Source: Deltaproteobacteria bacterium (GTDB lineage: Bacteria; Desulfobacterota; Binatia; UBA9968). Taken from it: a DNA stretch of 64,000 bases. Position numbers and translations under genes: made by a program. The notes under the pieces were generated by a model, which saw nothing but the letters and a program-made list of their open reading frames with translations, had not been told where the DNA came from and did not search any database. Where the stretch lies: assembly GCA_016874755.1 (NCBI GenBank), contig VGTH01000016.1, positions 1 to 64,000 of the forward strand. The letters are read 5' to 3'. Positions 11,602 through 31,214 of the stretch are shown here, in pieces (position 1 is the stretch's first letter; every line of letters starts with the position of its first letter).

Positions 11602-13023
11602 ATGGCATTTTCCGACCTAAGAACTTTCATCGACGGCGCCGCCAAAATCGGCGAGCTAAAGAAAATCGACGGCGCCCACTGGGACCTTGAAATCGGTTGC
11701 CTAACCGAGTTGATGGCCGAACAGGACGGCCCGCTGTTACTCTTCGATAATATCTCCGGTTATCCCAAAGGCTTTCGCATCGCCACCAACGTGCTCGCCT
11801 CGGCGCGCCGCTTCGCGCTTGCTCTGGGTTTGCCGCACGACGCGCCGAAGATCGAGATCCTGAGAACCTGGCGCAACAAGATTCGCGACTTGAAAGGCTT
11901 CGCGCCCGTGGAAGTTTCCACCGGTCCGCTGACGGAAAATATTCTCGAAGGCGAGCGCGTCGACCTGGAAATTTTCCCGACGCCCAAGTGGCACGAGCAC
12001 GACGGCGGCCGCTACATCGGCACCGGCGACATGGTGGTGATCAAAGATCCCGACAGCGGCTGGGTCAACGTCGGAACTTATCGCTCGTGCATCGTCGGCA
12101 AAGATCGCGTCACGCTGTGGATCATCGAGCAAAAGCACGGCAAGCAGATCGCGCGCAAATACTGGCAGAAAAAACAACCCTGCCCCATGGCCATCGTCTT
12201 CGGCTGCGAGCCGGCGACCTGGATGGCCGCGCCGTCTGCTGCCAAAGCCGGCGTCAGCGAGTACGAATACGCCGGCGCTCTGCGCGGCGTGCCGCTGGAA
12301 CTGTTCAAGCTGCCGCTCACCGGCCTGCCGGTGCCGGCGACCTCCGAGATTGTCGTCGAAGGCGAGATGCCGCCGCCGGAAGAAGAGACGCACAAAGAAG
12401 GCCCCTTCGGCGAATGGCCGGGCTACTACACCCATAGCGGCGAAGAGTGCGTCGTGCGCGTGAAAAGAATTTATCACCGCAACGATCCCATTTTACTTGG
12501 CAACCCGCCGCTGTTGCCGATCACCGAGCGCTACGGCATCCCGCTCTTCGCCGCGCGCATCTGGGACCATCTCGAACAATCCGGCGTCACCGACGTCCAA
12601 GGCGTCTGGTGCCATTGCCATACGCTAATGGTCGTCGTCTCAATCAAGCAGCGCTTCGGTGGCCAGGCGATGCAAGCGCTGACGGCGATCGCCGGCATGT
12701 TCACCGGCGCCAGCATGTATCGCTATTACGTCGCCGTCGACGACGACATCGACCCGGTGGATTTGAAACAGGTCATCTGGGCCATGTGCACCCGCGTCGA
12801 CCCCAGTGAATCGGTAACAGTGTTAAAATCGTGGACCTCTGACTTGGACCCGCGCCTGCCGCCGGAAAAGCGCGAGCGCGGCGACTTCACCATGGGCCGC
12901 ATGCTAATCGACGCCTGCAAACCGTTTCACTGGCGCGAAAAATACGCACTCGCCAACAAGTTCAGCAGCGAAAAGCGCGAGGAGATCTGGGAGAAGTGGG
13001 CGGCAAAGCTAGGGTTGAAGTAA
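11602..13023 (+). CDS. UbiD-family (de)carboxylase 1
   Basis: UbiD enzymes use prenylated FMN for reversible decarboxylation of aromatic or alpha,beta-unsaturated acids. The protein has 473 residues, a typical length. The active-site Arg is Arg161 in NVGTYR and the two glutamates are Glu266 and Glu271 in the EGPFGE motif; WHEHDGGRYIGTGDMVV precedes the Arg. It is the first intact gene of a plus-strand cluster to 18951 and is similar to the UbiDs at 14965 and 62909. The substrate cannot be named. No UbiX is present in the window. Confidence 0.93.
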   Translation: MAFSDLRTFIDGAAKIGELKKIDGAHWDLEIGCLTELMAEQDGPLLLFDNISGYPKGFRIATNVLASARRFALALGLPHDAPKIEILRTWRNKIRDLKGFAPVEVSTGPLTENILEGERVDLEIFPTPKWHEHDGGRYIGTGDMVVIKDPDSGWVNVGTYRSCIVGKDRVTLWIIEQKHGKQIARKYWQKKQPCPMAIVFGCEPATWMAAPSAAKAGVSEYEYAGALRGVPLELFKLPLTGLPVPATSEIVVEGEMPPPEEETHKEGPFGEWPGYYTHSGEECVVRVKRIYHRNDPILLGNPPLLPITERYGIPLFAARIWDHLEQSGVTDVQGVWCHCHTLMVVVSIKQRFGGQAMQALTAIAGMFTGASMYRYYVAVDDDIDPVDLKQVIWAMCTRVDPSESVTVLKSWTSDLDPRLPPEKRERGDFTMGRMLIDACKPFHWREKYALANKFSSEKREEIWEKWAAKLGLK

Positions 13024-13103
13024 GATCCGACCGATCAACGCCACACGCCGGTTGACGCGCGCCGCGGCAACCACTATGGTCAGCCGAAAAAGGAGATGCT
13101 CCC

Positions 13104-14015
13104 ATGGACAAAGTCAATTTCCCCTATCGCTCGGACACTCACCTACCGTTTTTACACGTCGTCCACCATTCAGGCTCCTGGGCCAAGCATGGCCTGGAAG
13201 TGAACTACGATTGTGAAATCACCTCGGACGACTCGCACAAGAACGTCGCCAACGGCACCATCGAATTCGTCGGCGGCAATCATCTCTCTCCTTACATCCG
13301 CCGGCCTGCGGGCGACAAGTGGGTGTACCTCGGCCAGACGGTTAGCATGTTGAACCACCGATTAGTCGTGCGCGCCGACTCGGGCATTAACAAGATTTCC
13401 GATCTCAAAGGCAAGACCGTCGCAACCAAAGGCAAACACCCGGGGTTGAACACCTGGTTGTTCATCAAACAAGCAGGCTTGCTCCAAGACTGCCACGTTG
13501 AAAAAGCCAAGGGCAGCGCCTTTCATTGGGAAGAAGTGCGCGACGGCAAAGCCGATGCTGCATTCGTAACGCCGCCGGCCGATATTCTCTCCAAGCGCGC
13601 CGGCTTGAAAGTCATCGATGTGCCGTTCCTGCCGATGGTGTGGTTCACAACGGTTTCCAGCGGCGCTGGCTTCGTCGAGAAACGTCCCGACATCGTCGAC
13701 AAGATGCTGCGCGGCATCTGCGAAGGCATCGCCTACTTCAAAAACCACCGCGCCGAATCTATCAAGATCATCAAGGACAAGTACAAGGCCGAAGGCGACA
13801 TGGACGATGAGACGGCCACGCATCTCTACGAAGATCTCGCGAAAATCTTGCAGGCAAAACCCTATGCCACGATCCCGGCGATCTCCAACGTCTACGAGAT
13901 CGCCATCGAGCAGGATCGCGCCGCAGAAAAATGCGACCCCATGGCGCTGTGGGATTTTCACTATCTGCGCCGCATCGACGATAGCGGGTTTATCGATAAT
14001 TTGTATCGGACATAA
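13104..14015 (+). CDS. NMT1/THI5-like binding-protein-fold protein without signal peptide
   Basis: The 303-residue protein has NMT1/THI5 features (KISDLKGKTVATKGKHPG near residue 100, GKADAAFVTPPADI near 155) but begins MDKVNFPYRSDTHLPF with no hydrophobic leader, so it should be cytoplasmic. A strong AAGGAG Shine-Dalgarno lies just upstream of the ATG, supporting the start. It ends DDSGFIDNLYRT, the same C-terminal signature as the secreted binding proteins at 16421 and 17439. In this fold, signal-less members include 4,5-dihydroxyphthalate decarboxylase and Thi5-type enzymes, so an enzymatic or ligand-sensing role is possible. It lies between a UbiD and a haem-oxygenase-like protein. Confidence 0.8.
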   Translation: MDKVNFPYRSDTHLPFLHVVHHSGSWAKHGLEVNYDCEITSDDSHKNVANGTIEFVGGNHLSPYIRRPAGDKWVYLGQTVSMLNHRLVVRADSGINKISDLKGKTVATKGKHPGLNTWLFIKQAGLLQDCHVEKAKGSAFHWEEVRDGKADAAFVTPPADILSKRAGLKVIDVPFLPMVWFTTVSSGAGFVEKRPDIVDKMLRGICEGIAYFKNHRAESIKIIKDKYKAEGDMDDETATHLYEDLAKILQAKPYATIPAISNVYEIAIEQDRAAEKCDPMALWDFHYLRRIDDSGFIDNLYRT

Positions 14016-14020
14016 AACCA

Positions 14021-14098
14021 ACGTCTAGCGTCTAGGGTTTAGCGTCTGGCGTTTGCGAGCCCGAACGCTAGACCCTGGACGGCAAACCCCAAACGCCC
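14021..14098. repeat. Quasi-periodic spacer with mirrored arms
   Basis: The spacer repeats phrases like AGCGTCTGG and then their reverse complements: CGTCTAGGGTTTAGCG on the left faces CGCTAGACCCTGGACG on the right. It would fold as an imperfect hairpin between two plus-strand genes. No coding potential is seen. Confidence 0.6.
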
Positions 14099-14863
14099 AT
14101 GATCGCTCCCCAACTCGGCGTCAGAATGTCTCCAGACGACGCCACGGCTTACATCGCTGCACTGAATAGAAAAGTCCTTCTACGCTGGAAAGAACGCGTC
14201 ACCGACGGCCCGTTCATGCGGCCGTTTCTTGACGGCAAGCTGCCCATGTCGGCGATCAAACTATTCTTCAAAAACTGGGGTAACTTCACGGTCGAGATCA
14301 ACACGCTGGTGTCGGTTTCCTATCACAAGCACATTGGATTCTTTAAGCGCCATCCCGATTTGATGGGTCCCCTAGGCGTCAAAATCGCCGACGAGTTCAT
14401 TCATCCCCAACCACCGGGGCATGTACTGGTCATGCTGCAAACCGCCGAAGCGCTCGGCCTCACGAAAGAAGAGATTTTGCGCACACCGATGCTGCCGGAG
14501 TGCCGCGCCATCCTCGACTTCAAGCGCCAGCTCATGTGGGAAGGCACGGTCGCTGAGTGGTGGTTCTCGATGATGACCGAAGAACCGATCGGCTACTGGT
14601 CGGCGATGTGGGGTAAAACCTTGACGCAAAGATATGGCTTCACAAAACAGCAAGCGGTTTACTTCAAGACCCACGAAGAAGCCGACTTAAAAGAACATGA
14701 AGACGGCGTCATGGGCCACGCCACTTTCAACAAAATGGTCATGCAGCGCATCTTGGAAGACGGCTACGCCGACTGCCGCGAAGGATATAATTTAGAATAC
14801 TGTGCCCTGGCGGCGGTGGACCTCTATGGCGTAATGCACCGCGCTGCAGCGGAACTTGCATAA
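14099..14863 (+). CDS. Haem-oxygenase-like (TenA/PqqC-fold) diiron-type protein
   Basis: The 254-residue, mostly helical protein carries the metal-ligand pattern of haem-oxygenase-like diiron oxidases/oxygenases: Glu99 and His108 in ADEFIHPQPPGH, then His192, Asp196 and His200 in THEEADLKEHED. Members of this fold include PqqC, CADD and SznF/UndA-type diiron enzymes, and also metal-free TenA. The retained ligands suggest an iron-dependent oxygenase or oxidase. It sits between the signal-less binding-fold protein and UbiD 2. A second protein of this fold is at 51985-52689. Confidence 0.8.
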   Translation: MIAPQLGVRMSPDDATAYIAALNRKVLLRWKERVTDGPFMRPFLDGKLPMSAIKLFFKNWGNFTVEINTLVSVSYHKHIGFFKRHPDLMGPLGVKIADEFIHPQPPGHVLVMLQTAEALGLTKEEILRTPMLPECRAILDFKRQLMWEGTVAEWWFSMMTEEPIGYWSAMWGKTLTQRYGFTKQQAVYFKTHEEADLKEHEDGVMGHATFNKMVMQRILEDGYADCREGYNLEYCALAAVDLYGVMHRAAAELA

Positions 14864-14867
14864 GAAA

Positions 14868-14955
14868 GGCGGAATTATGAAAGCGGAATTATGAAGGACA
14901 GACCGAAGCTCGCCGCTAGGGCCCAGCTTCATCCTTCCGCCTTCATCCTTCATAC
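14868..14955. repeat. Purine-rich repeat spacer facing its complement
   Basis: GCGGAATTATGAA is repeated twice on the left (from about 14870 to 14896), and the right end carries CTTCATCCTTCCGCC and CTTCATCCTTCAT, their approximate reverse complement. It lies between the haem-oxygenase-like gene and UbiD 2. Confidence 0.55.
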
Positions 14956-14964
14956 TTTTTCACT

Positions 14965-16398
14965 ATGACCCCATCCAACCACGATCTCCGTGCATTCTTA
15001 AACGAAGTCGACAAAATCGGCGAGCTGCGCCGTATCTCTGGCATCCCGTGGGACAAAGACATGGGCGGGCTCGTCGAGATGATTTTGGAGCGCAGCAAAA
15101 ATCCGCCGGCGATGATCTTCGACAAAGTTCCCGGCTCGCGCCAGGACATGGAGATTCTTTGCAGCCAAATCGATACGCTACCGCGGCTAGCGATCGCCAT
15201 GGGCACGGACCCGAAACTCAGCCTCACCGATTTCATCCAGGCTTGGCGGCGCAAGATTCGCAACTTCGAGCCGGTGCCGGCGCAGTTCGTCAAAGAGGCG
15301 TCGATCTTCGAAAACTGCATCGACAAAAACATCGACCTGGAAGCCTTTCCGATCCCGCGTTGGCACGAAGAGGACGGCGGCCGCTACATCGGCACCGACG
15401 ATCTGGTCATCACCGAAGATCCCGAAGAACACTGGATCAATGCCGGCACCTACCGCGTCATGTTGCAGGGCAAAGACGCCGTGGCGTTGTATATTTCGCC
15501 GGGCAAACACGGCCGCGTGCAGCGGCAAAAGTATTTCGACGCCGGCAAGCCCTGCCCGGTTGTCATGTCCTTCGGCCACCATCCAATTTTGTTTCTCGCC
15601 GCCTGCACCGATGTGCCGGTGAAAATGAGCGAGTTCGACTACGCTGGCGGCGTGATCGGCGAGCCGATTCAAATGGTCAAAGGACCGCTCACCGGCTTGC
15701 CGATTCCGGCCTACTCGGAAATCGCCATCGAAGGCGAAATGGTTCCCGGCGAAAATTTGCCAGAGGGCCCGTTCGGCGAATGGCCCGGCTACTACGCCAG
15801 CGCGACGCGGCCCGAGCCGGTGGTGCGCATCAAGGCGCTGTATCATCGCAACCACCCGATTCTCTGCGGCGAACCGCCGCTGCGACCGTCGGCGGGTCAA
15901 GGCTTTCACCGGTCGATCCAACGCTCGGCGTTGATTTGGAATGCGCTCGAAGACGCCGGCGTTCCCGACGTGCATGGCGTGTGGCTGCACCCGGGCGCCT
16001 ATCGATTTTTTTCGATTTTGAAAATCAAACAGCGCTACCCCGGTCACGCCAAACAGGCGGCATTGATCGCGAGCCAGTGCCGTCCCGGCGCCTATCTGGG
16101 TCGCTACGTAGTGGTTGTCGACGACGACATCGATATCTACAACCCCGACGATGTCATCTGGGCCATCGGCACGCGCTCCGAGCCGGAGAACATCGACATT
16201 CTGCGCCGCTGTTGGAGCGGCCCCCTCGACCCGGCGATCCCGCGCGAGCGCAAGGGCTTCAACTCGCGCGCGATCATCGACGCGACGCGGCCCTACGAGT
16301 GGAAAGACAAGTTTCCGCCGGTAAACGCGGTGAGCGATCAACTGAAGGCGGAGTTGGATAAGAAGTACGCGACGCTATTGAAGGATATGATCCGATAA
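14965..16398 (+). CDS. UbiD-family (de)carboxylase 2
   Basis: A 477-residue UbiD-family protein for prFMN-dependent (de)carboxylation. The conserved Arg164 in NAGTYR and Glu267/Glu272 in EGPFGE are present, with WHEEDGGRYIGTDDLV before them and VVVDDDIDIYNPDDVIWA near residue 390, the family's conserved acidic loop. It is clearly paralogous to the UbiDs at 11602 and 62909 but differs enough to suggest another substrate. It is followed after 22 nt by a secreted binding protein. Confidence 0.93.
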   Translation: MTPSNHDLRAFLNEVDKIGELRRISGIPWDKDMGGLVEMILERSKNPPAMIFDKVPGSRQDMEILCSQIDTLPRLAIAMGTDPKLSLTDFIQAWRRKIRNFEPVPAQFVKEASIFENCIDKNIDLEAFPIPRWHEEDGGRYIGTDDLVITEDPEEHWINAGTYRVMLQGKDAVALYISPGKHGRVQRQKYFDAGKPCPVVMSFGHHPILFLAACTDVPVKMSEFDYAGGVIGEPIQMVKGPLTGLPIPAYSEIAIEGEMVPGENLPEGPFGEWPGYYASATRPEPVVRIKALYHRNHPILCGEPPLRPSAGQGFHRSIQRSALIWNALEDAGVPDVHGVWLHPGAYRFFSILKIKQRYPGHAKQAALIASQCRPGAYLGRYVVVVDDDIDIYNPDDVIWAIGTRSEPENIDILRRCWSGPLDPAIPRERKGFNSRAIIDATRPYEWKDKFPPVNAVSDQLKAELDKKYATLLKDMIR

Positions 16399-16420
16399 TC
16401 GCGTTGCGAGGAGGCACGCA

Positions 16421-17419
16421 ATGAAGCGAAATCTCGCCCTCTTTGCCGGGTTGCTATTGGCAAGCTTACCCTCTCTCGCCCACCCCCAAACCTCACTCTC
16501 CAATGTTATCCTCGGCCACAGCGGCAGCACCGGCTCGCTGGGCAATCTGCGCCGCATCATCGAGCGGGAGAAACTGTGGGAAAAGCACGGCCTCAGCGTC
16601 AAGAGCGTCTATTTCGGCAGCGGCGGGGTTTTGACCCAGGCGCTCGCCGGCGGCAACATCGCCGGCTCGGAATCCGAAGTGCCGGGCATGTTAAACCTCA
16701 CGGTGTCCGGCGTCCTCGACGCAAAGCTCCTCACGGTGACGATCAACAAGATCGAGCATGTCTTCGTCGTGCGCAAAAACATCGCGAAGAACGACGATCT
16801 CAAAGGCAAGAAACTCGCCGTCAGCCGTTTCGGTTCGGCCTCCGATACCGTCACGCGCCTGGTGCTGAAATCCTGGAAAATCGATCCCGAAAAAGAAGTG
16901 ATCTTGCTGCAATCCGGCAACACGCCGACGCGCATGTCGGCCCTTGCAGCAGGCCATGTCGACGGCGCGCTGGTGAGCCCGGAGAGCATTCACAAGATCC
17001 TAGCATCGGCCTGCTGCCGGATTCTTTTCGATCTCTCCGAGCTGCCGATGGACTATGCCCGCTACGGCTACGTCTTTCCGACCGCATGGATTAAATCGAA
17101 TCGCGACGTGCTGCGCCGCCTACTCATGGCATACTTGGAAGGCATCGCAATTTTTCGCACCCGTCCCACGGCCGCCTTCGCGGCTCTTGAAGACGACGGC
17201 ATCAAAGACCCGGCGGTGCAAAAAGATATCTACGAGCGCTCGCTAAAACATGTGCGCGAGTATCCAATACCAGAGCCCAATGGAGTGCAAAACGTACTCG
17301 AATCATTGCCCCATCCAAACGCCAAAACCAGCAAACCGGCCCAGCTCATCGACACCAGCGTCTTGGAAGAAATCCGAAAATCTGGTTTCATCGATAAACT
17401 CTACGGGCGGCCAAGTTAA
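16421..17419 (+). CDS. NMT1/THI5-type periplasmic substrate-binding protein A
   Basis: The 332-residue protein starts with a clear signal peptide (MKRNLALFAGLLLASLPSLA, cut before HPQTS), followed by the SsuA/TauA/THI5-like two-lobe domain: LRRIIEREKLWEKHGL, DDLKGKKLAVSRFGSASDTV and GHVDGALVSPES. It ends IRKSGFIDKLYGRPS. AGGAGG lies about ten bases before the ATG. Close paralogue of the next gene (19 nt downstream). Such proteins normally feed an ABC importer, but no permease or ATPase gene is nearby. Confidence 0.88.
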   Translation: MKRNLALFAGLLLASLPSLAHPQTSLSNVILGHSGSTGSLGNLRRIIEREKLWEKHGLSVKSVYFGSGGVLTQALAGGNIAGSESEVPGMLNLTVSGVLDAKLLTVTINKIEHVFVVRKNIAKNDDLKGKKLAVSRFGSASDTVTRLVLKSWKIDPEKEVILLQSGNTPTRMSALAAGHVDGALVSPESIHKILASACCRILFDLSELPMDYARYGYVFPTAWIKSNRDVLRRLLMAYLEGIAIFRTRPTAAFAALEDDGIKDPAVQKDIYERSLKHVREYPIPEPNGVQNVLESLPHPNAKTSKPAQLIDTSVLEEIRKSGFIDKLYGRPS

Positions 17420-17438
17420 ATAAGTTGCGAGGAGAAAA

Positions 17439-18446
17439 ATGTTCCGATCGTTCCGAATCAGAGTTCTTGCCGTAGTCGTCACCGCGCTGATTTGCGCCAA
17501 TGCCCATGCCCAAACCAATCAAGTCGTCATCGGCTACAGCGGCACCGGATTGACCACCGATCTGCGCAAGCTCATCGACCGTGAAAATATTTGGGAGAAG
17601 CACAACCTGAGCGTCAAGTCGGTTTATTTCAACAGCGGCTCGCTGATGAGCCAGGCAATGCTCGGCGGCAGCATTACCGCGTCGGACTCCGACGTGCCTG
17701 CAGTTATGGTCCTCACGGTCGCCGGCATCATCGACGCCAAGTTGGTCGCCGTCAGCATCAATCGGCTCGAGCATTACTTCGTCGTGCGCAAGAACATTAC
17801 CAAGGCCGAAGACCTCAAGGGCAAGAAGGTCGCCGTCAGCCGGCTGGGCTCTTCGTCCGACATGGTCACGCGCATGGTGCTCAAGCAATGGAAGATCGAT
17901 CCGGAAAAAGAGATGACTTTCCTGCAGGCCGGCAACACGCCGACGCGCCTGTCGGCTCTCAGTAGCGGCCACGTCGACGCCGCGCTGATCGGCCCGGATA
18001 ACGTCCACAAAATTGTCGCCACCGGCTGCTGCCGGGCGATGGCCGATCTGTCTGAATTGCCGCTCGACTATGCGAGATTTGGCCTCGTCGTGCCCACCGC
18101 CTCGATCAAAACTCAACGCGATCTGATGCGCCGCTTGCTAATGGCCTTCACCGAAGGCATTTACGTTTTCAAGACCAAACCCAAACTGGCCATGGCGATC
18201 ATCGAAGAAAACGGCATCAAGGATCAAAATATCGTCAAAGAGCTCTACGACCGCATCTCCAAAAGTCTGCGCGAGTTTCCCGTGCCAGAGGAAAAAGGCG
18301 TGCAAGGCGCCCTCGATTCGCTCACCCATCCCAACGCCAAGACCGCTAAACCTGCGAGCCTGATGGACACCAGCTTGATGGATGAGATCCGTAAATCCGG
18401 CTTTATCGACAAGCTCTACGGGCGGGCGCCGCGGAACGAGAAATAG
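17439..18446 (+). CDS. NMT1/THI5-type periplasmic substrate-binding protein B
   Basis: A 335-residue paralogue of the preceding gene: signal peptide to about residue 25 (LICANAHAQ), LRKLIDRENIWEKHNLSVKS, EDLKGKKVAVSRLGSSSDMV, GHVDAALIGPDN, and the C-terminal IRKSGFIDKLYGRAP. AGGAG lies directly upstream of the start. The tandem duplication suggests two related ligands or gene-dosage selection. The ligand is unknown; an aromatic or small carboxylic acid is an inference from the adjacent UbiD genes. Confidence 0.88.
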   Translation: MFRSFRIRVLAVVVTALICANAHAQTNQVVIGYSGTGLTTDLRKLIDRENIWEKHNLSVKSVYFNSGSLMSQAMLGGSITASDSDVPAVMVLTVAGIIDAKLVAVSINRLEHYFVVRKNITKAEDLKGKKVAVSRLGSSSDMVTRMVLKQWKIDPEKEMTFLQAGNTPTRLSALSSGHVDAALIGPDNVHKIVATGCCRAMADLSELPLDYARFGLVVPTASIKTQRDLMRRLLMAFTEGIYVFKTKPKLAMAIIEENGIKDQNIVKELYDRISKSLREFPVPEEKGVQGALDSLTHPNAKTAKPASLMDTSLMDEIRKSGFIDKLYGRAPRNEK

Positions 18447-18469
18447 TCTTTTCGATTCCGTGAAAACAT

Positions 18470-18566
18470 GAACGGATTCTTACCAACAATTTTCAACTTC
18501 TGATCCGTTCGCCCTGAGCTCAGTCGAAGGGCTCCGATGAGTTTTTCAGCAGCCCGAGTGAGAGTT
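18470..18566. repeat. Dispersed hairpin repeat, copy 1
   Basis: GAACGGAT (18470-18477) pairs with ATCCGTTC (18503-18510). The right side continues GCCCTGAGCTCAGTCGAAGG, then GCTCCGATGAGTTTTTCAGC. The same words recur at 18949-19079 and 60545-60656. It lies between binding protein B and the ABM gene. Confidence 0.7.
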
Positions 18567-18600
18567 CCCAAATTAGCTCGACTGTCGAGGAGGATCATTC

Positions 18601-18951
18601 ATGTTTATTGTCACCAACCGCATTCCCGTCACCCACGGCCACGAGTCCGACTTTGAAGATCGGTTCCGCAACCGGGCCCATCTCATCGACCAATCGCCCG
18701 GATTCGTCAAAAACCTTGTGCTTCGCCCAGTCTCACGCCGCTTTAACCATCAGACCGGACAATGGGAAGAAACCAAGGAGCAAGGCTACTACCTCGTGCA
18801 AACTTACTGGGAAAGCGAACAAGACTTTTGGAATTGGACAAAGAGCGAATCGTTCCGCATCGCTCACAGCAACCGTCCGGCGGCGGAAATGTTTGCCGGT
18901 CCAAACGTCTTAGAAACTCACGAAGTGATTCTTACAACGGACAAGAAGTGA
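18601..18951 (+). CDS. Antibiotic-biosynthesis-monooxygenase (IsdG/HmoA-like) domain protein
   Basis: A 116-residue ferredoxin-like-fold protein matching the ABM family: MFIVTNRIPVTHGHESDFEDR, HLIDQSPGFVKNLVLRPV, and a YYLVQTYWES strand. ABM proteins are small dimeric oxygenases; the IsdG/HmoA branch degrades haem and others oxidise quinones without cofactors. TCGAGGAGGATCATTC gives a strong Shine-Dalgarno just before the ATG. Last gene of the plus-strand cluster, separated from binding protein B by a dispersed hairpin repeat. Its TGA stop codon is also the first three bases of the next repeat copy. Confidence 0.75.
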   Translation: MFIVTNRIPVTHGHESDFEDRFRNRAHLIDQSPGFVKNLVLRPVSRRFNHQTGQWEETKEQGYYLVQTYWESEQDFWNWTKSESFRIAHSNRPAAEMFAGPNVLETHEVILTTDKK

Positions 18952-22781: not shown

Positions 22782-24380
22782 TCACCCCAGTTTATTCACC
22801 CGCACCCGCTGCTGTGCGCGTTTCTCGCCGGTTTCGTAATGGTCGCCTTTGACAGCCGCTTGCGCGTCCTGCTCGTCTTCATCGGACCACAAACCTAAAT
22901 CATAGCCGTGCCACGGATCCTGTGGTTGCAACTTGGGCAATTCCAAGCGCTCCCAGAGTTGCTTGGCGCGCTCCATGTATTCCTTCTTCGGCAACGACAC
23001 CGGCGGGTAGGCCCACTTGCGCGTCGCGTCCATCAGCATCGCCGAAGAACCGGCGATTTCATCCACCGACAAGCCTTGCTCGTGGCCCGGGGGAAAAACC
23101 GATGGATCCATCTGCGGCGTGCGGTTGCGAATGATCAGCACGTCGCGATGCGGCTGCATGCGAAACGCCATAGCCCAAAAAAGCGAATCGAGATTGCGCG
23201 GGTTGATATCCTCGTCGACGGCGATAACCATCTTCCCGGTCGCCGGATTGTAACCGACCATGCTATGCAGCGCCTGCCAGACATGGGCCTGGTTGATCTT
23301 CTTCATCTTGATGACGCAGATCTGACGCACCGCGATGCTGTGAAACGCCACTTCGATAATGCCGGGGATGTTGCACTGATCGCGTAGGAAGCGCAGATAG
23401 TTTCCCTCCGCCGAAACCTGGCGCATAACGCTCGATTCGCTGGGCGGCATTTGGCTGATGATCGTCGCAAGAATCGGATTTTTGCGATGCGTGACACATT
23501 TTACTTCGAAGTAAGGGTTCAATAATTTCTCGGCGATGTAGCCAGTCGATTCGCCAAAGGGCGCTTCCGGTTCGAGAAACTCCGTGGAGATTTCACCCTC
23601 GATGACAATCTCGGCATTGGCGGGAACCAGCACATCGTTGGTTTTACACTTTACAACTTCAATGGCTGCGCCTGCCAAGCCGCCGGCAACGTCGAGCTCG
23701 CTGACGTTGAAAGGAATGCGCGACGGCGCCGTGTATGCCACGCAGGGAGGCGCGCCGATCACCAACGCCGCCGGCAGCGGCACGCCGCGCTCTTGACACT
23801 TGCGCCAGTGATAGCCGCCATGATTGCTCGAGCTCAGGAACACGCCGGTGCGGGTCGGGCTTTTGATGTGGCCGCGGTAGTTGCCGATATTGATGATGCC
23901 GGTTTCGATATCCTTGGTGAACCAGTGCGACGCGGTGGTAAACGGCGCGCAATCGTAGCCCGGCGTGGAAATCGGAATGGGAAATTCGCTAAGCGCGCCG
24001 TGCTCCATCAGCGATGCGCCCATATGAACTTCTTCCTGCACCGGCGCTTTCTCGACGACCTTGGGTGGAATCGGATTCTGCTGCGCCTTCGACCAACGGT
24101 CGACAATTTCTTCCGGCGCGCACTGCAAGCCGAAGCCATAGATCTGCCGCGATGCCGCCAGACTCCCGCACACCACCGGAATATCGTACTTGCGCCCCTT
24201 GGCATCAACGACGTTGGTGAAGATGAACGCGCGCCGCTCTTCTTCTGACAGACCGCGAAACTGCCAGCGCACCAGCGGCATCAGCTCGGTGTCTTTATTG
24301 ATCTGCTCGTCGATCTTGACCAGCAGGCCGGCTTTATCGAGCGCGGCGATATGTTCTCTTAAGTCTTTGAAATAACCCAT
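22782..24380 (-). CDS. UbiD-family (de)carboxylase 3
   Basis: A UbiD protein of 532 residues from ATG 24378-24380 (MGYFKDLREHIAALDKAG), longer than the other copies. AAGGATTC precedes this start. Arg169 (NIGNYR) and Glu272/Glu277 (EAPFGE) are conserved, and VIAVDEDINPRNLDSLFWA is the family acidic loop. It is the last gene of the seven-gene minus-strand operon that begins with the Rieske oxygenase at 31097. It is distant from UbiDs 1, 2 and 5, so a different acid is likely. Confidence 0.93.
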   Translation of the reverse strand: MGYFKDLREHIAALDKAGLLVKIDEQINKDTELMPLVRWQFRGLSEEERRAFIFTNVVDAKGRKYDIPVVCGSLAASRQIYGFGLQCAPEEIVDRWSKAQQNPIPPKVVEKAPVQEEVHMGASLMEHGALSEFPIPISTPGYDCAPFTTASHWFTKDIETGIINIGNYRGHIKSPTRTGVFLSSSNHGGYHWRKCQERGVPLPAALVIGAPPCVAYTAPSRIPFNVSELDVAGGLAGAAIEVVKCKTNDVLVPANAEIVIEGEISTEFLEPEAPFGESTGYIAEKLLNPYFEVKCVTHRKNPILATIISQMPPSESSVMRQVSAEGNYLRFLRDQCNIPGIIEVAFHSIAVRQICVIKMKKINQAHVWQALHSMVGYNPATGKMVIAVDEDINPRNLDSLFWAMAFRMQPHRDVLIIRNRTPQMDPSVFPPGHEQGLSVDEIAGSSAMLMDATRKWAYPPVSLPKKEYMERAKQLWERLELPKLQPQDPWHGYDLGLWSDEDEQDAQAAVKGDHYETGEKRAQQRVRVNKLG

Positions 24381-24411
24381 GAAAGTAGAATCCTTGTAAA
24401 ATAGGCCGCGA

Positions 24412-25302
24412 TTACTGCCCGAGAATCCCGTTGTCCCGCAGCTCCCGTTCAAGTTTCACGATCTCCTCCTTGGGCATCTGCTCAGTATCCCACTTGGGAA
24501 ACCGCTTCACGGCAAGGCCTCGCATACGATAGACCTCTTGCAGCGGCGCGCGGCCCCACTTGCGCAGCCGCGCGGCGACGATGCGCGCTGCGGTGTCGAC
24601 TTTTTTCTGCGCCTCGACCGCGCTCGGATAATCCTTCCTATCAAGGGAGTTGAATAAATCGACGCACAACTCGGGCACGAAACTTGTCGGCGGATTGATC
24701 ATGCCGGCGAGGCCGAAAGGCACGAGTCCGAATAGATCGGCATTGCCCGTGAACACCGACACATCCGGCAGGAGGCGCACGTATTCGAGCAGCGCGCCCT
24801 GGCCATAGGCGACTTTGATGCCCTTCAATGCTGGCACCTGTTCTTTCATGCGCACGGCAAAGCCTGGGGGAATGGAGATGCCGGAGTATTTGGGATTCTC
24901 ATAGATATAAATAGGCAGCGACACTGCTTTGTGCACCATCTTGTAATGCGCCATGATCTCGAACTCGGTGTGATCGGAATAGTAATACGGCGGCACAATC
25001 GCCACCGCGTTCGCCCCATGCTGCGCCGCGTGCTCGGCTAACTCCGTAGTGCTCCACGCATCGGCCGTGCCGATGTGAATGATGACAGGCACGCGCTTCT
25101 TCGCCTGATCAAGCGCGACAGCCGCAGTCTGCTTGCGTTCGTCAATGGTCATCGCCGGCCCTTGTCCGGTCGACCCGGCAACGAACAACCCCTGCACTCC
25201 CGCCTTGATATGAAAGTCGACGATCTGGCGCATCATCTGTTCGTCGACACGCACTTTCTCGTCGAACGGTGTGATCACCGGCAGTAAAACCCCACGAATC
25301 AT
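24412..25302 (-). CDS. DapA-family (dihydrodipicolinate synthase/NAL-like) aldolase or hydro-lyase
   Basis: A 296-residue TIM-barrel protein of the DapA/N-acetylneuraminate-lyase superfamily, which form a Schiff base with a 2-keto acid. Seen: Schiff-base Lys163 in GIKVAYG, Tyr134 in YENPKYSG (YxxP in the family) and GSTGQG (43-48) where DapA usually has GTTGE. The changed residues and catabolic context argue against lysine synthesis and for cleavage of a pyruvate adduct, such as hydratase-aldolases of aromatic degradation. Starts 43 nt after the Rieske oxygenase and ends 31 nt before UbiD 3. Confidence 0.88.
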   Translation of the reverse strand: MIRGVLLPVITPFDEKVRVDEQMMRQIVDFHIKAGVQGLFVAGSTGQGPAMTIDERKQTAAVALDQAKKRVPVIIHIGTADAWSTTELAEHAAQHGANAVAIVPPYYYSDHTEFEIMAHYKMVHKAVSLPIYIYENPKYSGISIPPGFAVRMKEQVPALKGIKVAYGQGALLEYVRLLPDVSVFTGNADLFGLVPFGLAGMINPPTSFVPELCVDLFNSLDRKDYPSAVEAQKKVDTAARIVAARLRKWGRAPLQEVYRMRGLAVKRFPKWDTEQMPKEEIVKLERELRDNGILGQ

Positions 25303-25345
25303 GATTTCCTCCAGCCAATTTCAGAAAATTTTCCACTGTCCATTT

Positions 25346-26590
25346 TCAATTATCAATTAATTTTCTAACTCCCACCGCCGTATCAAGCGCCGTCGTGCCA
25401 CTCTTCATGTCCGTCGGCAGCGCTCCCTTCGGCGTGCCGCCCTGCTGCGCGGTCTCGATGGCGTCCAAGACGATGTTGCGAAACTTGATCACACCGCGAT
25501 CGGACGTGCCAAGCTGCTCGCTGCGCTCGCCGAGCAAACCTTGGGTGCCCTGGGTCATGATATCTTCTTTGCGCACGTTGCCTTTGTACGGCATGAATTT
25601 TCTTTTGTCGTAAGGCTTAACTTCCTGGATCGGCGTTTCCTTGGCGCGCATCTCTTTCAAGCGCGCAAAGAAATTTTCCTCAGGTCCCCGATAATTGTCA
25701 GCGGTAAACAGCATGAAATGATCGTCGTCGTTGGGCGTGACGAACATCCAGTGCTCGCAGCGCGAGCCCTCCTGGATCAGCGCCGCCGCGTCCATCTTGG
25801 CATGGACAAATTCGGTGTCGCCTACCTGCACGATCGCCGGCAGCGCGAGACTCATCTCGTCGATAAACTCCGTCCCCGGCCGCGGCCCCGGTTTGGTCAT
25901 GACGACTTTCATGCCATAGGGCATGTCGACAAACTCGAAATGTGGCATATCAGTGTAGCTAAAAAAATGATCGCCCCACGACTGCTGGCCGTAGCCGGCG
26001 TGGCGGTGCAGCACGCAGACATGCACCGGGTCGGCGGAGTTTTCGAAGAAATTGAACCAGTTGTACTCGGCGTGGCGCACGGGCTCCACTTGCCGTTGCC
26101 CGCCGCGATCCTGCAACGGCGGATAAATCGGCAGCGGCGGCGGATTTTCACGCTCCGCGCCCAGGTAGGCAAAGATCAATCCACCCTGCTCGCGCACAGG
26201 ATAAGCAAGGTGCTTCACCTTCTGTGGAAATTTAGAATCCTTGGGCTCGCCCGGCATTTCCAAACATTGTCCGCGCACGTTGAACAGCCAACCGTGATAG
26301 GGACAGCGGATGCCGCCATCTTCGATGTCGCCATACTCGAGCGACGTCCCGCGATGCGGGCAGTTCTGACCAACCAGCCCTAGTTGCCCATTGCCATCGC
26401 GAAACAATATAAGATCCTCGCCCAGCACCCGCACCGCCTGCGGGATGTCATATAACTCCTGGGTCGTGCCGACGGCGATCCAGTAGCGGCGAAACCAGTC
26501 TCCCGCCGGTGTGCCGGGGCCAACGCGGGGAATATCCGCAATCTTAAGCTTTTTGTTCCTTCCTCGCTTCGCACTTTTCGTCGTGTTCAT
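25346..26590 (-). CDS. Rieske [2Fe-2S] ring-hydroxylating oxygenase, phthalate-dioxygenase-like A
   Basis: A 414-residue oxygenase alpha subunit. The Rieske cluster ligands are Cys77/His79 and Cys96/His99 (CPHRG...CPYHGW); the catalytic iron ligands are His190, His195 and a later acid, with bridging Asp187 in ENSADPVHVCVLH. The C-terminal LGTSDRGVIKFRNIVLDAIE block is typical of the phthalate 4,5-dioxygenase-like group, which needs a separate reductase; none is encoded here. Paralogue at 29886. Within the operon it follows UbiD 4 by 36 nt. Confidence 0.94.
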   Translation of the reverse strand: MNTTKSAKRGRNKKLKIADIPRVGPGTPAGDWFRRYWIAVGTTQELYDIPQAVRVLGEDLILFRDGNGQLGLVGQNCPHRGTSLEYGDIEDGGIRCPYHGWLFNVRGQCLEMPGEPKDSKFPQKVKHLAYPVREQGGLIFAYLGAERENPPPLPIYPPLQDRGGQRQVEPVRHAEYNWFNFFENSADPVHVCVLHRHAGYGQQSWGDHFFSYTDMPHFEFVDMPYGMKVVMTKPGPRPGTEFIDEMSLALPAIVQVGDTEFVHAKMDAAALIQEGSRCEHWMFVTPNDDDHFMLFTADNYRGPEENFFARLKEMRAKETPIQEVKPYDKRKFMPYKGNVRKEDIMTQGTQGLLGERSEQLGTSDRGVIKFRNIVLDAIETAQQGGTPKGALPTDMKSGTTALDTAVGVRKLIDN

Positions 26591-26626
26591 AACCCACTTC
26601 CTAGGCGGTTGACCGGTCTCAGTGGT

Positions 26627-28006
26627 TCAAGACTTTAACCCGTACTCCTTCCACTTCTGCAAAACCTGCTCGCGCATCTTGTCCGTCGGCTCGGCCACTT
26701 CGCCGCGGAAATTTTCTTTGATCGTCAGATCGAGCATCAGCTTCGACGTAAAGCCGTCTGCTTCCGCCGACGGCTCCAACGAACTGGTGATACTGCGCGG
26801 GATCACGAACATGTCAGTGGCCGGCTGAAAGCGCGTTGTCAGCGCCCACAGAACTTCGTTCGGGTCTTCCATGTTGATGTCTTCGTCGACGACGATGACG
26901 TGCTTCCACTTGCCGCTGCGGGTGTAAAGCGATGAGGCGAGAATTTGGTTGGCGATGCCGCGGCGCATCAAACGCTTCTCCACCTGCAAAATCAAAACGA
27001 TCGACACCCCCCAGGGCGGCGCGTAGGCTTTCTTCAGCGCGGGATAGGCGGGCTTTAACTCTTGATAGGCCGCGACCGCGTAGGTCAAAGCGTCCACATA
27101 CAGATGCTCATGGGGCGGTTTGCCGAGCCAGATGTTGTGATAGATCGGATTGCGCCGATGGGTGACCGCTTTGATCGTCATGATCCGTTCGTTGGGCACC
27201 TGCGCCGTTGTGTAACCGCAAAATTCGCCGAACGGCCCTTCGTCGCCGGTCTTCGCCGGAATCGTCAGCTCGCCTTCGAGCACGATCTCGGCCAGCGCCG
27301 GCACTTCGAGATCGATGGTGCGGCACTTTACGACGTCAACCGGCTCACCGGCCAAACCGCCGGCGATTTCCAATTCAAAAACTCCGGCGCGCGGTTCGAA
27401 TTGCGAAGCAACGTACACCGCCGGCGGCACACCGATGCAGACCGCCACTTGAAAATTTTTCTGGCCGCGCTTCTCGGCATTGCGCATGAAGTCGTGGCCG
27501 TCGTGGCCCGGTGTGAAACGAAGGGTCACTTCGTTTTTCGACACCAGCATCATGCGGTAGATCGCCAGATTGTTGCCGAACTCGGGGTCTTTGATGATCA
27601 CGTGGCCGGCGGTGATGTACGGTCCACCGTCGCGCGGATTGTTCGTGCACAGTGGCAGCTTCGTAATATCGACGTCTTTCCCCTCGTAAACCACTTCTTG
27701 GCACGTACCGCTGGCCACTAATCGGGTTGGGATCGGCTGGCTCGCCCGCTTCACGGTTTCGTCGAAAACGTTCTCCTGCGACAGGCCGAGCGCCAGCGCA
27801 ACTCGCCTGTCGCTGGCCAACAATTGACCGACCACCGGAATCTTGTTGCTCTTGACGTTCTCAAACAGCAGCGCCGGGCTGTTGGGCTTTTCATTGTGGA
27901 TCTTACAAATCGCGCCCAGCTCGTGCTTCGGATCGACCTCGGCTTTGATCTTCGTGAGCTCGTGCTCTTCTTCCAAGACTTTGAGAAACTCGTGCAGGTC
28001 CATCAT
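26627..28006 (-). CDS. UbiD-family (de)carboxylase 4
   Basis: A 459-residue UbiD protein with Arg151 in NLAIYR, Glu256/Glu261 in EGPFGE, and VVDEDINMEDPNEVLWA. Two Met codons compete as start; the second gives one residue less. It lies 23 nt after the epimerase and 36 nt before Rieske A. It is the copy least like UbiDs 1, 2 and 5, having CTNNPRDGGPYITAGHVIIK where those carry WHE(H/E)DGGRYIG. Confidence 0.94.
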   Translation of the reverse strand: MMDLHEFLKVLEEEHELTKIKAEVDPKHELGAICKIHNEKPNSPALLFENVKSNKIPVVGQLLASDRRVALALGLSQENVFDETVKRASQPIPTRLVASGTCQEVVYEGKDVDITKLPLCTNNPRDGGPYITAGHVIIKDPEFGNNLAIYRMMLVSKNEVTLRFTPGHDGHDFMRNAEKRGQKNFQVAVCIGVPPAVYVASQFEPRAGVFELEIAGGLAGEPVDVVKCRTIDLEVPALAEIVLEGELTIPAKTGDEGPFGEFCGYTTAQVPNERIMTIKAVTHRRNPIYHNIWLGKPPHEHLYVDALTYAVAAYQELKPAYPALKKAYAPPWGVSIVLILQVEKRLMRRGIANQILASSLYTRSGKWKHVIVVDEDINMEDPNEVLWALTTRFQPATDMFVIPRSITSSLEPSAEADGFTSKLMLDLTIKENFRGEVAEPTDKMREQVLQKWKEYGLKS

Positions 28007-28029
28007 GTCGTAATTACCAACCGTCCTCT

Positions 28030-28914
28030 CTAATTCAGCAGCGACAATTTCGCTTCGAATCCCAACACCGTTTTTGCCTTTGCCACAGAGTAACCGCTGC
28101 AGGCTCCATCCAAACCCTCTCGTAGATCACTTACCTGGGAAAGATAGCGGCTGGCAAGCTCGCGAAACGAAATGTCCACCAGATTTCCGGTTGCGGCGAT
28201 GTTAAAAATTTGATGCCCCGGCAGGGTCGCTTCCAGCGCCAAGCGCACCGCGCGCGCCGCGTCGCGCGCGTCAATATAGCTCCAAAGCGCGCCCGTGCCG
28301 CGAACGAGCGGATCTTTCTTGCGCTCTAACAGCATAGCGCGGTGCGCTTCGGTATAGATGCCGGAGAAGCGCAGGCTCACAATCGGCATACCGCTCTTTC
28401 GGCTCAATGCGTCGCAAAGCGTCTCGCCGACGAGCTTCGTGAGTCCGTAGGGATCTTGCGGCCGCAACGGATGTGCCTCGTCCACTGGCAAGTAAGCCGG
28501 CAACAAATCTGTCGAAGGATAGTAGAGTCCATAGATCGCCAGGCTCGAGCCGCAGACGATTTTCTTCACGCCCGTCGCCTGCGCCGCCGCGAGAACATTA
28601 TTCGTGATCGCCAGGTTTTGGTTGAACAGCTCGGCATCGCCGGCGCTGTCACGGAACTCAAATTTCAACGTGGCCGCATTAAACCCGTTCTCGGTGTAGG
28701 GGAAACGTACGCGCGCCAGATGCACCACCGCATCGGCATTTTTAAAATGGTCGGCAAGCCGGTCGATTTTCGTCAGATCGGTCACATAGGTGGGGCACAA
28801 ACACTCGCGCGGCTTGATCGTGTCGAGCACCGAAACGCCGTGCGCGTGGGTGAACAGCTCGCGCACGACAAACTGGCCTAGTCTCCCCGAGCCGCCTGTA
28901 ACAACCACGCGCAT
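28030..28914 (-). CDS. NAD-dependent epimerase/dehydratase (extended SDR)
   Basis: A 294-residue extended short-chain dehydrogenase with the nucleotide motif TGGSGRLGQ (6-14) and the YxxxK pair in PYGLTKLVGE. A role in sugar metabolism is the family default, but the catabolic operon suggests it may instead oxidise a dihydrodiol or hydroxy acid made by the Rieske enzymes; this is inference. It starts 2 nt after the binding protein ends, indicating tight co-transcription. Confidence 0.85.
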   Translation of the reverse strand: MRVVVTGGSGRLGQFVVRELFTHAHGVSVLDTIKPRECLCPTYVTDLTKIDRLADHFKNADAVVHLARVRFPYTENGFNAATLKFEFRDSAGDAELFNQNLAITNNVLAAAQATGVKKIVCGSSLAIYGLYYPSTDLLPAYLPVDEAHPLRPQDPYGLTKLVGETLCDALSRKSGMPIVSLRFSGIYTEAHRAMLLERKKDPLVRGTGALWSYIDARDAARAVRLALEATLPGHQIFNIAATGNLVDISFRELASRYLSQVSDLREGLDGACSGYSVAKAKTVLGFEAKLSLLN

Positions 28915-28916
28915 GG

Positions 28917-29882
28917 CTATTTCCCCAATGAACGGAAATAGCCGGCCTGCTCGAGGTCTTTGAGTAAGCTATTGTCGACAAAATCGCCGGCCTTTGCCTC
29001 GCGCGCTTCTTTGCCCGGCGTGCGCTTGAGAATTTCGTCAATACTTTCCGGCCGCACGTAGGGAATCCGATCGCCGCTGTAACGAACATAGGTTTGATGG
29101 AGCTGCGCCAGGGTTTCCGGATCGACGACCTTGGTGTACTTCGACAGCACTTTCATGCTGAACTCTTTGTCCGCGCGCAGCCGCTGCAAACCTTGATTAA
29201 AACCACGCATAAACCGCAGCGCCGTGTCGCGCTGCGCGCGAATAAACGGTCGCGTGGTCGACAGCGGTGTGTTGGGAAAAACGATCTTCAATTGCCCGAC
29301 GTCCTGCAGCTCATGCATGCCGGCCTTGGCTGCACGAAAATTGCTCGGCGGCGATAGCACCACCGCATCGAGCGCACCGGAAATCAGCGCCGCCAAACCT
29401 TCCGGCATGCCGCCGGTCTGAATCACCGTGACCTGCCCGCGCTCCATGCCCCACTGCTGCAGCGCCGCGTCGAGCGCCCAATCGGTCGAGCCGCCCAGGC
29501 GCGTCACACCGACTTTCTTGCCGCGCAACTGCGCCGGTTGTTTGACTTCCGACCGCGCCATGATCGAGAACACCAGCGAATTGCCGGTGTTGCCGATCAA
29601 AACCAAGTCCGAGCCGCGCAGCGACGCGTTGATCACCGGAACTGACGGTCCGTAGGCAAACGGCACATCGCCGCTGAGCATCGACTGGATCAACAGTGAG
29701 CCGCCTCCAATGTAGAGCAGCTCCGTGTCGAGCCCTTCGCGCTTGAAGTAACCGCCTTCCTGCGCCACCCAGAGAGACGACATGGCGCCGCTGATGGCGC
29801 TGTAGGCGACTCGCAGCGGCGCGGCGCGCGACACCGAAGGTCCAAACAGCAGAAAAAGCGCCAGCACAATTGCGTGAATCAT
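28917..29882 (-). CDS. NMT1/THI5-type periplasmic substrate-binding protein D
   Basis: A 321-residue secreted binding protein: signal peptide MIHAIVLALFLLFGPSVSRA, then LRVAYSAISGAMSSLWVAQE, QLRGKKVGVTRLGGSTDWAL and SGALDAVVLSPPSNF. The tail ends LEQAGYFRSLGK, a weak version of the signature in copies A and B. Only 3 nt separate it from the upstream Rieske gene and 2 nt from the epimerase. Fixed inside a catabolic operon, it probably captures that operon's substrate, yet no permease or ATPase is present. Confidence 0.88.
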   Translation of the reverse strand: MIHAIVLALFLLFGPSVSRAAPLRVAYSAISGAMSSLWVAQEGGYFKREGLDTELLYIGGGSLLIQSMLSGDVPFAYGPSVPVINASLRGSDLVLIGNTGNSLVFSIMARSEVKQPAQLRGKKVGVTRLGGSTDWALDAALQQWGMERGQVTVIQTGGMPEGLAALISGALDAVVLSPPSNFRAAKAGMHELQDVGQLKIVFPNTPLSTTRPFIRAQRDTALRFMRGFNQGLQRLRADKEFSMKVLSKYTKVVDPETLAQLHQTYVRYSGDRIPYVRPESIDEILKRTPGKEAREAKAGDFVDNSLLKDLEQAGYFRSLGK

Positions 29883-29885
29883 CAG

Positions 29886-31097
29886 TTAGAAAAGTCCTTT
29901 CGCGCGAATCCCCGTGAACGAATCGATCGTAACCATTTCATCCGCCCGCGCAGCGGTAACAACGCCCTTGGGCGTCTTACCTTGCCGCACCGCTTCTATG
30001 CCGGCAAGAATCAGCTTGCGAAGCAAGATCACGCCCTTGTCGGACGTGCCGAGCTGTTCGGTGCGCCGATCGAGTTTGGGCTGCGTCGTCTGGCAGGCGA
30101 TATCCTCGGTGCGCACGCTGCCACGAAACGGGGCAAACTGCCGTTTGTCATAGGGCTTCTTTTGCACCGGCGCCTCGACCCGCCGGCTGGGCGAAAGTTT
30201 TTCGAAGAACTCAGGATCGTCGCCCATGTAGTGGTTGACGGTGTAGAGTGTAAAGCTCTCGTCGTCGTTGGGCGTGACAAACATGATGTGCGCATTGTGC
30301 GAGCCGGCGGCGAGCGCCTCCTTGGGTTGTTTGAAATGAGTGAATTCGGTGTCGCCGATCTGCATCACGCTCGGCAGCGCAATGCTCTTTTCGTCGACAT
30401 ATTCCGTCGCGTCCGTCGGCCCTGGCTTGCGCGAGATCACTTTCATGCCGTAGGCAGTTTCGACGGCGTCGAATGGCGGCACATCGCGATAGTTAAAAAA
30501 CCAACTGCGCCAGGTGCCATCAGTCGGATCGGCACGATGGAGGATCGAGAAATGCACCGGATCGGCGCCGTTCTCGATAAAGTTAAACCAGTTGTAATGG
30601 AACTGCCGGGTCGCTTCCAAAGAACGCTGCCCCGCGGAGTCGCACAGCGCTTTGTACTTGGGCAGCGGCGGCGGACTGTCCTGCTGCGGTCCTAAGTAAG
30701 CGAAGAGAATGCCGCCCTGCTCTTTGACTGGGTAGGCGAGATGCTTCACCTTCCGAGGAAACTGACTGCCCGGCGGCTCGCCGGGCATGGCAAGGCATTG
30801 GCCGCGCACATCGAACAACCAGCCATGATAGGGACAGCGAATGCCGCCGTCTTCAATGTCGCCGTATTCCAGCGACGTGCCGCGGTGCGGACAGCTCTGG
30901 CCGACAAGTCCGTAGCGACCGTTCGGATCGCGAAACAGGACTAAATCTTCACCAAGAACTTTAACGGCTTGGGGAATGTCGCGCAGATCGCGCGTTGTGC
31001 CAACGGCTAGCCAATAACGGCGAAACCATTCGCCAACGGTTGTACCGCGGGCAACGCTGGGGAAATCAGACAGAGAAACTTTCTTACGGGAACCCAT
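29886..31097 (-). CDS. Rieske [2Fe-2S] ring-hydroxylating oxygenase, phthalate-dioxygenase-like B
   Basis: A 403-residue paralogue of the oxygenase at 25346. Rieske ligands Cys69/His71 and Cys88/His91; catalytic-site Asp179, His182 and His187 in ENGADPVHFSILH; C-terminal LGTSDKGVILLRKLILAGIE. ATG 31095-31097 (MGSRKKVSLSDFPS) is preferred over an in-frame start ten residues earlier because it aligns with the paralogue. It is the first gene of the seven-gene operon 22782-31097. Confidence 0.93.
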   Translation of the reverse strand: MGSRKKVSLSDFPSVARGTTVGEWFRRYWLAVGTTRDLRDIPQAVKVLGEDLVLFRDPNGRYGLVGQSCPHRGTSLEYGDIEDGGIRCPYHGWLFDVRGQCLAMPGEPPGSQFPRKVKHLAYPVKEQGGILFAYLGPQQDSPPPLPKYKALCDSAGQRSLEATRQFHYNWFNFIENGADPVHFSILHRADPTDGTWRSWFFNYRDVPPFDAVETAYGMKVISRKPGPTDATEYVDEKSIALPSVMQIGDTEFTHFKQPKEALAAGSHNAHIMFVTPNDDESFTLYTVNHYMGDDPEFFEKLSPSRRVEAPVQKKPYDKRQFAPFRGSVRTEDIACQTTQPKLDRRTEQLGTSDKGVILLRKLILAGIEAVRQGKTPKGVVTAARADEMVTIDSFTGIRAKGLF

Positions 31098-31214
31098 GAA
31101 TCGACGGCTGCAGCGGGCGGTGCCCAAGGCATGCGACTATTCATGAATTAATATGTGCTGGGGTGGCTGTCAATCGCGACGGCAGCCTACTAGATGACAA
31201 GTGGACTCGCGCAG

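Follow-up and report, generated by a model that had tools for sequence, protein, structure and literature searches.

A UbiD, NMT1-fold and haem-oxygenase-fold gene unit conserved in one Binatia family, with a possible role in carboxylic acid catabolism

The 64,000-nucleotide stretch analyzed here (the window; G000:C16:1-64000, from contig VGTH01000016.1; the genome has 101 contigs and a size of 5.56 Mb) carries four neighboring plus-strand genes, UbiD1, NMTcyt, HO and UbiD2, which form a conserved core that recurs wholly or partly in the Candidatus Binatia family of the window. They encode two (de)carboxylases of the prenylated flavin mononucleotide (prFMN) type, separated by a signal-less NMT1-fold protein of a cytosolic subfamily and a haem-oxygenase-fold protein, a candidate dimetal oxidase. 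The unit holds up in a smaller form than first proposed and was found in one Binatia family only within the searches made, which covered 148 genomes of the class, plasmids, a sample of 395 genomes of the phylum and a contig scan reaching close relatives only. We interpret it, with a probability of about 0.5, as a catabolic unit by which this family degrades a carboxylic acid of the aromatic, heteroaromatic or unsaturated kind. We suggest more tentatively that it represents a new catabolic module, in which a haem-oxygenase-fold dimetal oxygenase, a histidine-bearing cytosolic enzyme derived from a transport protein, and prFMN decarboxylases would together perform a non-Rieske breakdown of aromatic or heteroaromatic acids. 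Searching the open-licence literature for UbiD with haem-oxygenase-like or diiron proteins, TenA, binding proteins or Binatota returned no paper on such a unit, in agreement with the preliminary description of this DNA, which regarded a pathway with this gene set as undescribed.

Conservation of the gene core

A gene-neighborhood survey had been set beforehand as the test that could refute the preliminary description, and it showed conserved co-occurrence, the four-gene core recurring wholly or partly. Genes at the loci compared were called by codon scoring. Among the 148 class genomes, a close HO orthologue (at least 67% identity) is present in 14, namely G000 (the window's own genome), G128, G127, G126, G130, G139, G124, G121, G133, G138, G132, G134, G129 and G122, the gene being partial in the last two. 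G125 was excluded because its HO is split between two frames (L048, 5906-6597), through either assembly error or decay. NMTcyt neighbors HO in nine of the 14 (G000, G128, G127, G126, G130, G124, G132, G129 and G139); in G139 it lies upstream of HO with two called genes intervening, a TctC-type receptor and a TctA-like membrane gene named by eye. G125 would be the tenth such case (L048/L146) if its HO frame were not broken. These ten genomes belong to six genera (g1, g6, g7, g8, g9 and g13), all within the family of the window. Loci L032, L033, L034, L035, L036, L037 and L048 correspond to G128, G127, G130, G139, G124, G132 and G125, respectively, and were counted once.

UbiD2 is located directly downstream of HO in half of the 14 genomes (G000, G128, G127, G126, G130, G124 and G122), and the contig of G139 stops at HO. 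UbiD1 precedes HO on a shared contig in G000, G128, G139 and G125, with a binding-protein gene intervening in G128, and G129 carries a more distant UbiD1 relative (686 bits) upstream on the contig. In G126 and G124, UbiD1 occupies the end of a contig, which is consistent with the gene order and does not prove it. In G138, a UbiD1-like gene (492 bits) adjoins HO on the opposite strand. UbiD1 orthologues with 80-88% identity occur in G128, G126, G125, G139 and G124.

The association is also evident when NMTcyt is taken as the starting point. Orthologues with at least 62% identity are present in 18 genomes, nine of which have a close HO orthologue, and the two genes are neighbors in all nine. G125 also belongs to the 18, and the other eight carry no close HO orthologue. 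Lowering the cutoff to 51% adds G121 and G138, in both of which the genes are apart; with G125 included, the pair is adjacent in 10 of 12. A further NMTcyt copy in G132 lies away from HO and adjoins two UbiD genes.

It could be argued that the genes share no common pathway and that related genomes have simply kept an old neighborhood of families abundant in the lineage. PF01977 (UbiD) is matched 43 times in the genome of the window, NMT1-fold matches number at least 138 with 150 of the 263 candidates scored, and orthologues of HO and NMTcyt are also found apart. Because UbiD and NMT1-fold genes are so numerous, their nearness alone is weak evidence; the informative link is that of HO, which has eight matches in the genome at E ≤ 1.6e-39 including itself, with the signal-less NMT1-fold gene. 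We nevertheless consider this explanation unlikely. HO and NMTcyt are neighbors in nine of nine genomes with both close orthologues despite differing surroundings, and it is specific subfamilies that recur, not arbitrary members. The flanks include a molybdenum hydroxylase gene in G130 and Tct genes in G139. G132 has a gentisate-dioxygenase-like cupin below its NCBIfam cutoff, and G128 a cupin/dienelactone-hydrolase cassette.

HO gave no match on plasmids, and NMTcyt gave only partial Rhizobium matches there, at 25-28% identity. In the phylum sample, HO-profile matches (E ≤ 1e-40) occur in two of the 395 genomes, both of the window's family. The contig scan revealed 18 HO loci, in metagenome-assembled genomes titled Deltaproteobacteria, Candidatus Binatia or Syntrophobacter sp. 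SbD2.

The haem-oxygenase-fold protein

HO (14099-14863, plus strand) matches PF14518 (Haem_oxygenas_2) with 36.4 bits against a cutoff of 28.9, and a profile search finds CADD (1rcw, 8va9) at E of about 1e-7. The AF2 model, with a mean predicted local distance difference test score (pLDDT) of 92.3, has the haem-oxygenase fold; its best match is again CADD (Z 24.3, 2.0 Å over 212 residues), followed by PqqC (22.3), HrmI (21.3) and UndA (20.6). All 18 aligned rows share six potential metal ligands, E99, H108, E161, H192, D196 and H200, each of which is also conserved at 90% or more in a 46-row alignment. The preliminary description had listed an E-H-H-D-H set; these five residues are confirmed, and E161, which it overlooked, completes the six. 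H102 is likewise invariant in the 18 rows and falls below 90% in the 46, and E153 is an additional conserved glutamate. H108, E161, H192 and D196 pair with H88, E142, H174 and D178 of CADD, and E99 and H200 correspond by position only.

A 3-His/3-carboxylate ligand set is typical of the haem-oxygenase-like dimetal oxidases (HDOs), according to an excerpt of the review PMC13108848. HO shares both fold and ligand set with HDOs such as CADD, HrmI, UndA, BesC, AetD and SznF. Conversely, it is only about 14-18% identical to the solved members, and its setting is probably catabolic. We therefore consider HO a probable dimetal oxidase, judging from the modeled fold and the conserved residues, and a candidate for the non-Rieske oxygenation suggested earlier.

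The similarity to CADD does not make HO an enzyme of the CADD type. CADD sacrifices its own Tyr27 and Lys152, as described in an excerpt of PMC11965152. These residues align with F57 and W171 of HO, with K173 two residues off. Since the sacrificed tyrosine and lysine are absent, a CADD-type p-aminobenzoate synthase was rejected.

Characterized dimetal enzymes of this fold act mostly in natural-product biosynthesis, again as given in the excerpt of PMC13108848, and HO might accordingly make part of a specialized metabolite whose carboxyl groups are trimmed by the UbiDs. A Streptomyces plasmid (L158, 8995-11178) indeed encodes a UbiD that shares 55% identity with UbiD1, with UbiX after it and genes of the non-ribosomal peptide synthetase (NRPS) type nearby. 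However, no carrier-protein, NRPS or polyketide synthase family is present among the genes scanned, and the secreted binding proteins and ring-cleavage-type neighbors suggest uptake and breakdown. A biosynthetic cluster thus seems improbable to us. If the catabolic interpretation is correct, a haem-oxygenase-fold dimetal enzyme kept together with UbiDs would extend the role of this fold beyond natural-product biosynthesis.

A second HO type immediately precedes UbiD1 in G128, G126, G124 and G129, as well as in G125 with a weak score. In G132 it follows HO, and the window's genome has its copy on contig C8. The second type forms a single clade of seven rows (support 100/100) in a tree of 48 HO rows built from the last 262 residues and rooted at the midpoint, with long branches flagged and rows shorter than 200 residues or below 100 bits dropped. 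At L097 (8521-14635), L079 (13274-15821) and L140 (1833-4425), this type lies near a cupin, a zinc-ribbon gene (FmdB-like by eye) and a dienelactone hydrolase, with UbiD1 adjoining in some genomes. The window contains another, CADD-like haem-oxygenase-fold gene at 51985-52689 on the minus strand, which scores 86.5 bits for PF14518 and 102 bits for TIGR04305, whose cutoff is 200.

The signal-less NMT1-fold protein

NMTcyt (13104-14015, plus strand; PF09084, 42 bits) resembles the secreted binding proteins of ABC transporters and lacks their signal peptide. The highest 11-residue Kyte-Doolittle mean within its first 45 residues is 0.58, as compared with 2.36, 3.12 and 3.36 in three secreted binding proteins of the window. 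The whole open frame spans 319 residues versus 303 from the ATG, which leaves no room for an overlooked signal peptide. Hydrophobicity and frame extent thus agree with the preliminary assignment of an NMT1-fold protein without a signal.

In an alignment of 22 relatives, H13, H60, N116, W283 and H286 are present in all 14 full-length cytosolic rows and H112 in 13 of them, and none of the four histidines appears in any of the seven secreted rows; the secreted rows were judged by eye from their N-termini, and one truncated row was left unscored at its missing positions. The same five residues are again invariant in a 16-row alignment. Because this His/Asn/Trp signature is absent from the secreted NMT1/SsuA-type binding proteins compared, NMTcyt is probably catalytic or metal-binding. 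A 275-column alignment (E 1.8e-32) links the profile of the NMTcyt group to that of the secreted binding proteins. We propose that NMTcyt derives from a transport protein and has taken on a cytosolic and probably catalytic role, as these sequence comparisons suggest. With its signal peptide lost and invariant histidines gained, it is a case in which the conversion of a transport protein into an enzyme can be tested.

The NMTcyt model (pLDDT 67.6) adopts the binding-protein fold, matching ThiY (Z 18.5), Thi5 (16.4), DszB (13.9) and MqnD (13.3). In Thi5, MqnD and DszB, all cytosolic enzymes, a transport fold has been put to catalytic use. The Thi5 motif was checked in the sequence: the CCCFC segment, which we take to be this motif, is absent, the only cysteines of NMTcyt being at positions 37, 130, 206 and 277. 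The assignment as a Thi5 pyrimidine synthase was rejected on this basis. A broader thiamin-pyrimidine function, with a Thi5-like and TenA-like pair, would be consistent with the presence of ThiY and Thi5 among the best folds for NMTcyt and of TenA among those for HO. With the presumed Thi5 motif missing from NMTcyt, and with HO keeping its dimetal ligands and being nearest to CADD, such a function is very improbable.

Another analogy is provided by Pht5, the 4,5-dihydroxyphthalate decarboxylase, which combines a signal-less binding-protein fold with aromatic catabolism, as would NMTcyt. Plasmid genes annotated pht5 give a precedent for a decarboxylase of this kind beside aromatic dioxygenases. 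The fold, the missing signal and the aromatic setting suggested that NMTcyt itself could be a Pht5. However, its profile is linked only partially (181 columns, E 8e-7) to a four-row set with two annotated Pht5 proteins and is far nearer to the secreted NMT1 proteins; the identification was rejected and the likeness retained as an analogy only.

Several other loci were noted in this context. The window encodes, at 61892-62842 on the plus strand, a signal-less binding-protein-fold protein about 32% identical to annotated Pht5 proteins from plasmids and adjoining another UbiD gene. NMTcyt orthologues at L129 (2248-3697, G109) and L132 (11735-14945) lie near small haem-oxygenase-fold genes of another subfamily. 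One of these neighbors was confirmed, at L129:2248-2958 (G109; PF14518, 68 bits), and one other gave a weak match to HO; the rest were judged by eye, including similar-looking genes near the NMTcyt orthologue in G110, G116 and G123.

The two UbiD proteins

UbiD1 (11602-13023; PF01977 215 bits, with UbiD_N and UbiD_C) and UbiD2 (14965-16398; PF01977 206 bits), both on the plus strand, have the N, central and C domains of the family. Both keep the segments N-(V/A)-GTYR, SEI(V/A)(V/I)EGE and EGPFGEWPGY, aligned with solved UbiD enzymes. The three-domain architecture and the conserved active-site segments are common to the family of prFMN (de)carboxylases (7pda, HudA, VdcC, AroY). The catalytic Glu-Arg-Glu set presumably lies among these segments. 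The intact catalytic Arg/Glu sets of the preliminary description are borne out as regards the segments, within which the catalytic letters are presumed.

The best solved relative of both proteins is 7pda_A (592 bits for UbiD1 and 351 bits for UbiD2). No paper naming 7PDA with UbiD was found in the open-licence literature, and the nearest solved relative therefore gives no hint as to the substrate. Both proteins are below every NCBIfam equivalog cutoff and above only that of the general TIGR00148 subfamily. The genome has one UbiX above the cutoff, with a second match far below.

The location of HO and NMTcyt between two UbiDs allows a different reading, in which both serve the UbiDs, NMTcyt by binding or chaperoning prFMN or the substrate in the cytosol, and HO by aiding oxidative prFMN maturation. 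UbiD partners of such a kind exist: PhdC matures prFMN and LpdD carries it for other UbiDs, according to an excerpt of PMC13040415. The closest folds of NMTcyt are, moreover, binding proteins. However, PhdC has a flavin-reductase fold, unlike HO or NMTcyt (same excerpt of PMC13040415). HO orthologues occur without an adjoining UbiD2 in several genomes, NMTcyt orthologues occur in non-UbiD places, and despite the 43 UbiD matches in the genome the unit is present only once. A support module is, in our view, quite improbable.

Proposed pathway

In the catabolic interpretation, the acid would be captured by secreted binding proteins for a transporter that may be encoded elsewhere. Once in the cytosol, the acid would be decarboxylated by the UbiDs, whose prFMN would come from the single above-cutoff UbiX; decarboxylation is an established function of the family, and the acid proposed here is a suggestion. 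The presence of two UbiDs may indicate two decarboxylations or two isomers. HO, to judge from its modeled fold and ligands, could use two metal ions and O2 for the oxidation or cleavage of the acid or its decarboxylated product. NMTcyt would most likely act as a lyase or hydrolase that depends on a metal or on histidine, since it keeps the layout of a secreted protein without the signal peptide and has invariant histidines. The neighbors in some relatives, which include gentisate/5-aminosalicylate-dioxygenase-like cupins, dienelactone hydrolases and molybdenum hydroxylases, would fit this scheme of capture, decarboxylation and oxygenation, as far as can be judged from sequence.

Several observations weigh against this interpretation. 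NMTcyt is missing near HO in four of the 14 genomes (G121, G133, G138 and G134); the contig of G134 stops 318 bp upstream of HO, and the best NMTcyt match in that whole genome is only 40% identical. A further genome of the 14, G122, is uninformative for NMTcyt, as its contig stops inside HO. UbiD2 does not follow HO in G132, G129 and G125. Conversely, NMTcyt orthologues (at least 62%) occur without a close HO orthologue in eight genomes (G131, G123, G111, G116, G109, G114, G112 and G110). The genomes are related, so that the counts are not independent events, and with 43 UbiD and 138 or more NMT1-fold genes in the genome, some neighborhoods will be accidental. Finally, the NMTcyt model is weak, so its histidine site is not seen in space. 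We know of no explanation for the abundance of UbiD and NMT1-fold matches in this genome, to which the unit provides a handle.

Accessory and neighboring genes

The seven plus-strand open reading frames listed in the preliminary description are all present, separated by short spacers of 80, 83, 101, 22, 19 and 154 bp, in order. Their families (UbiD, NMT1, Haem_oxygenas_2, UbiD, NMT1, NMT1 and ABM) are all above the Pfam cutoffs. The proposal of a seven-gene unit, in contrast, does not stand: only four genes make up the core, the secreted binding proteins differ between genomes, and the ABM gene lies outside the core. SBP1 (16421-17419; PF09084, 37 bits) and SBP2 (17439-18446; PF09084, 45 bits), both accessory NMT1-fold secreted binding proteins on the plus strand, follow UbiD2 in this order in G000, G126 and G124, and other genomes have different binding proteins.

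The ABM-domain gene (18601-18951, plus strand; PF03992, 46.7 bits) is a neighbor only. Its relatives occur in 65 of the 148 class genomes, the best (81-89% identity) in other families; within the family of the window they reach only 52-54% and are not on cluster contigs. At the cluster loci compared (170 sources, window included), no ABM relative was found other than the window's own copy. Since its near relatives belong to other families and are not located at the cluster, the ABM gene was rejected as part of the unit. As its nearest relatives are outside its own family, it may have been gained horizontally. Its HmuQ-like score is 66.5 bits against a cutoff of 130. Haem handling, suggested by the name of the HO fold together with an HmuQ-like ABM protein, was rejected because HO has dimetal ligands and the ABM gene shows no link to the cluster.

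Promoters and terminators were counted no more often than expected by chance, and the PHROGs comparison gave no match. No P-loop pattern was found in the open reading frames of the window, but the pattern also misses known P-loop genes, and the result has no bearing on transporters. A second aromatic-type block is located at 22782-31127 on the minus strand and comprises a UbiD, a DHDPS-family protein, a Rieske protein, another UbiD, an epimerase-type protein, an NMT1 binding protein and a second Rieske protein.

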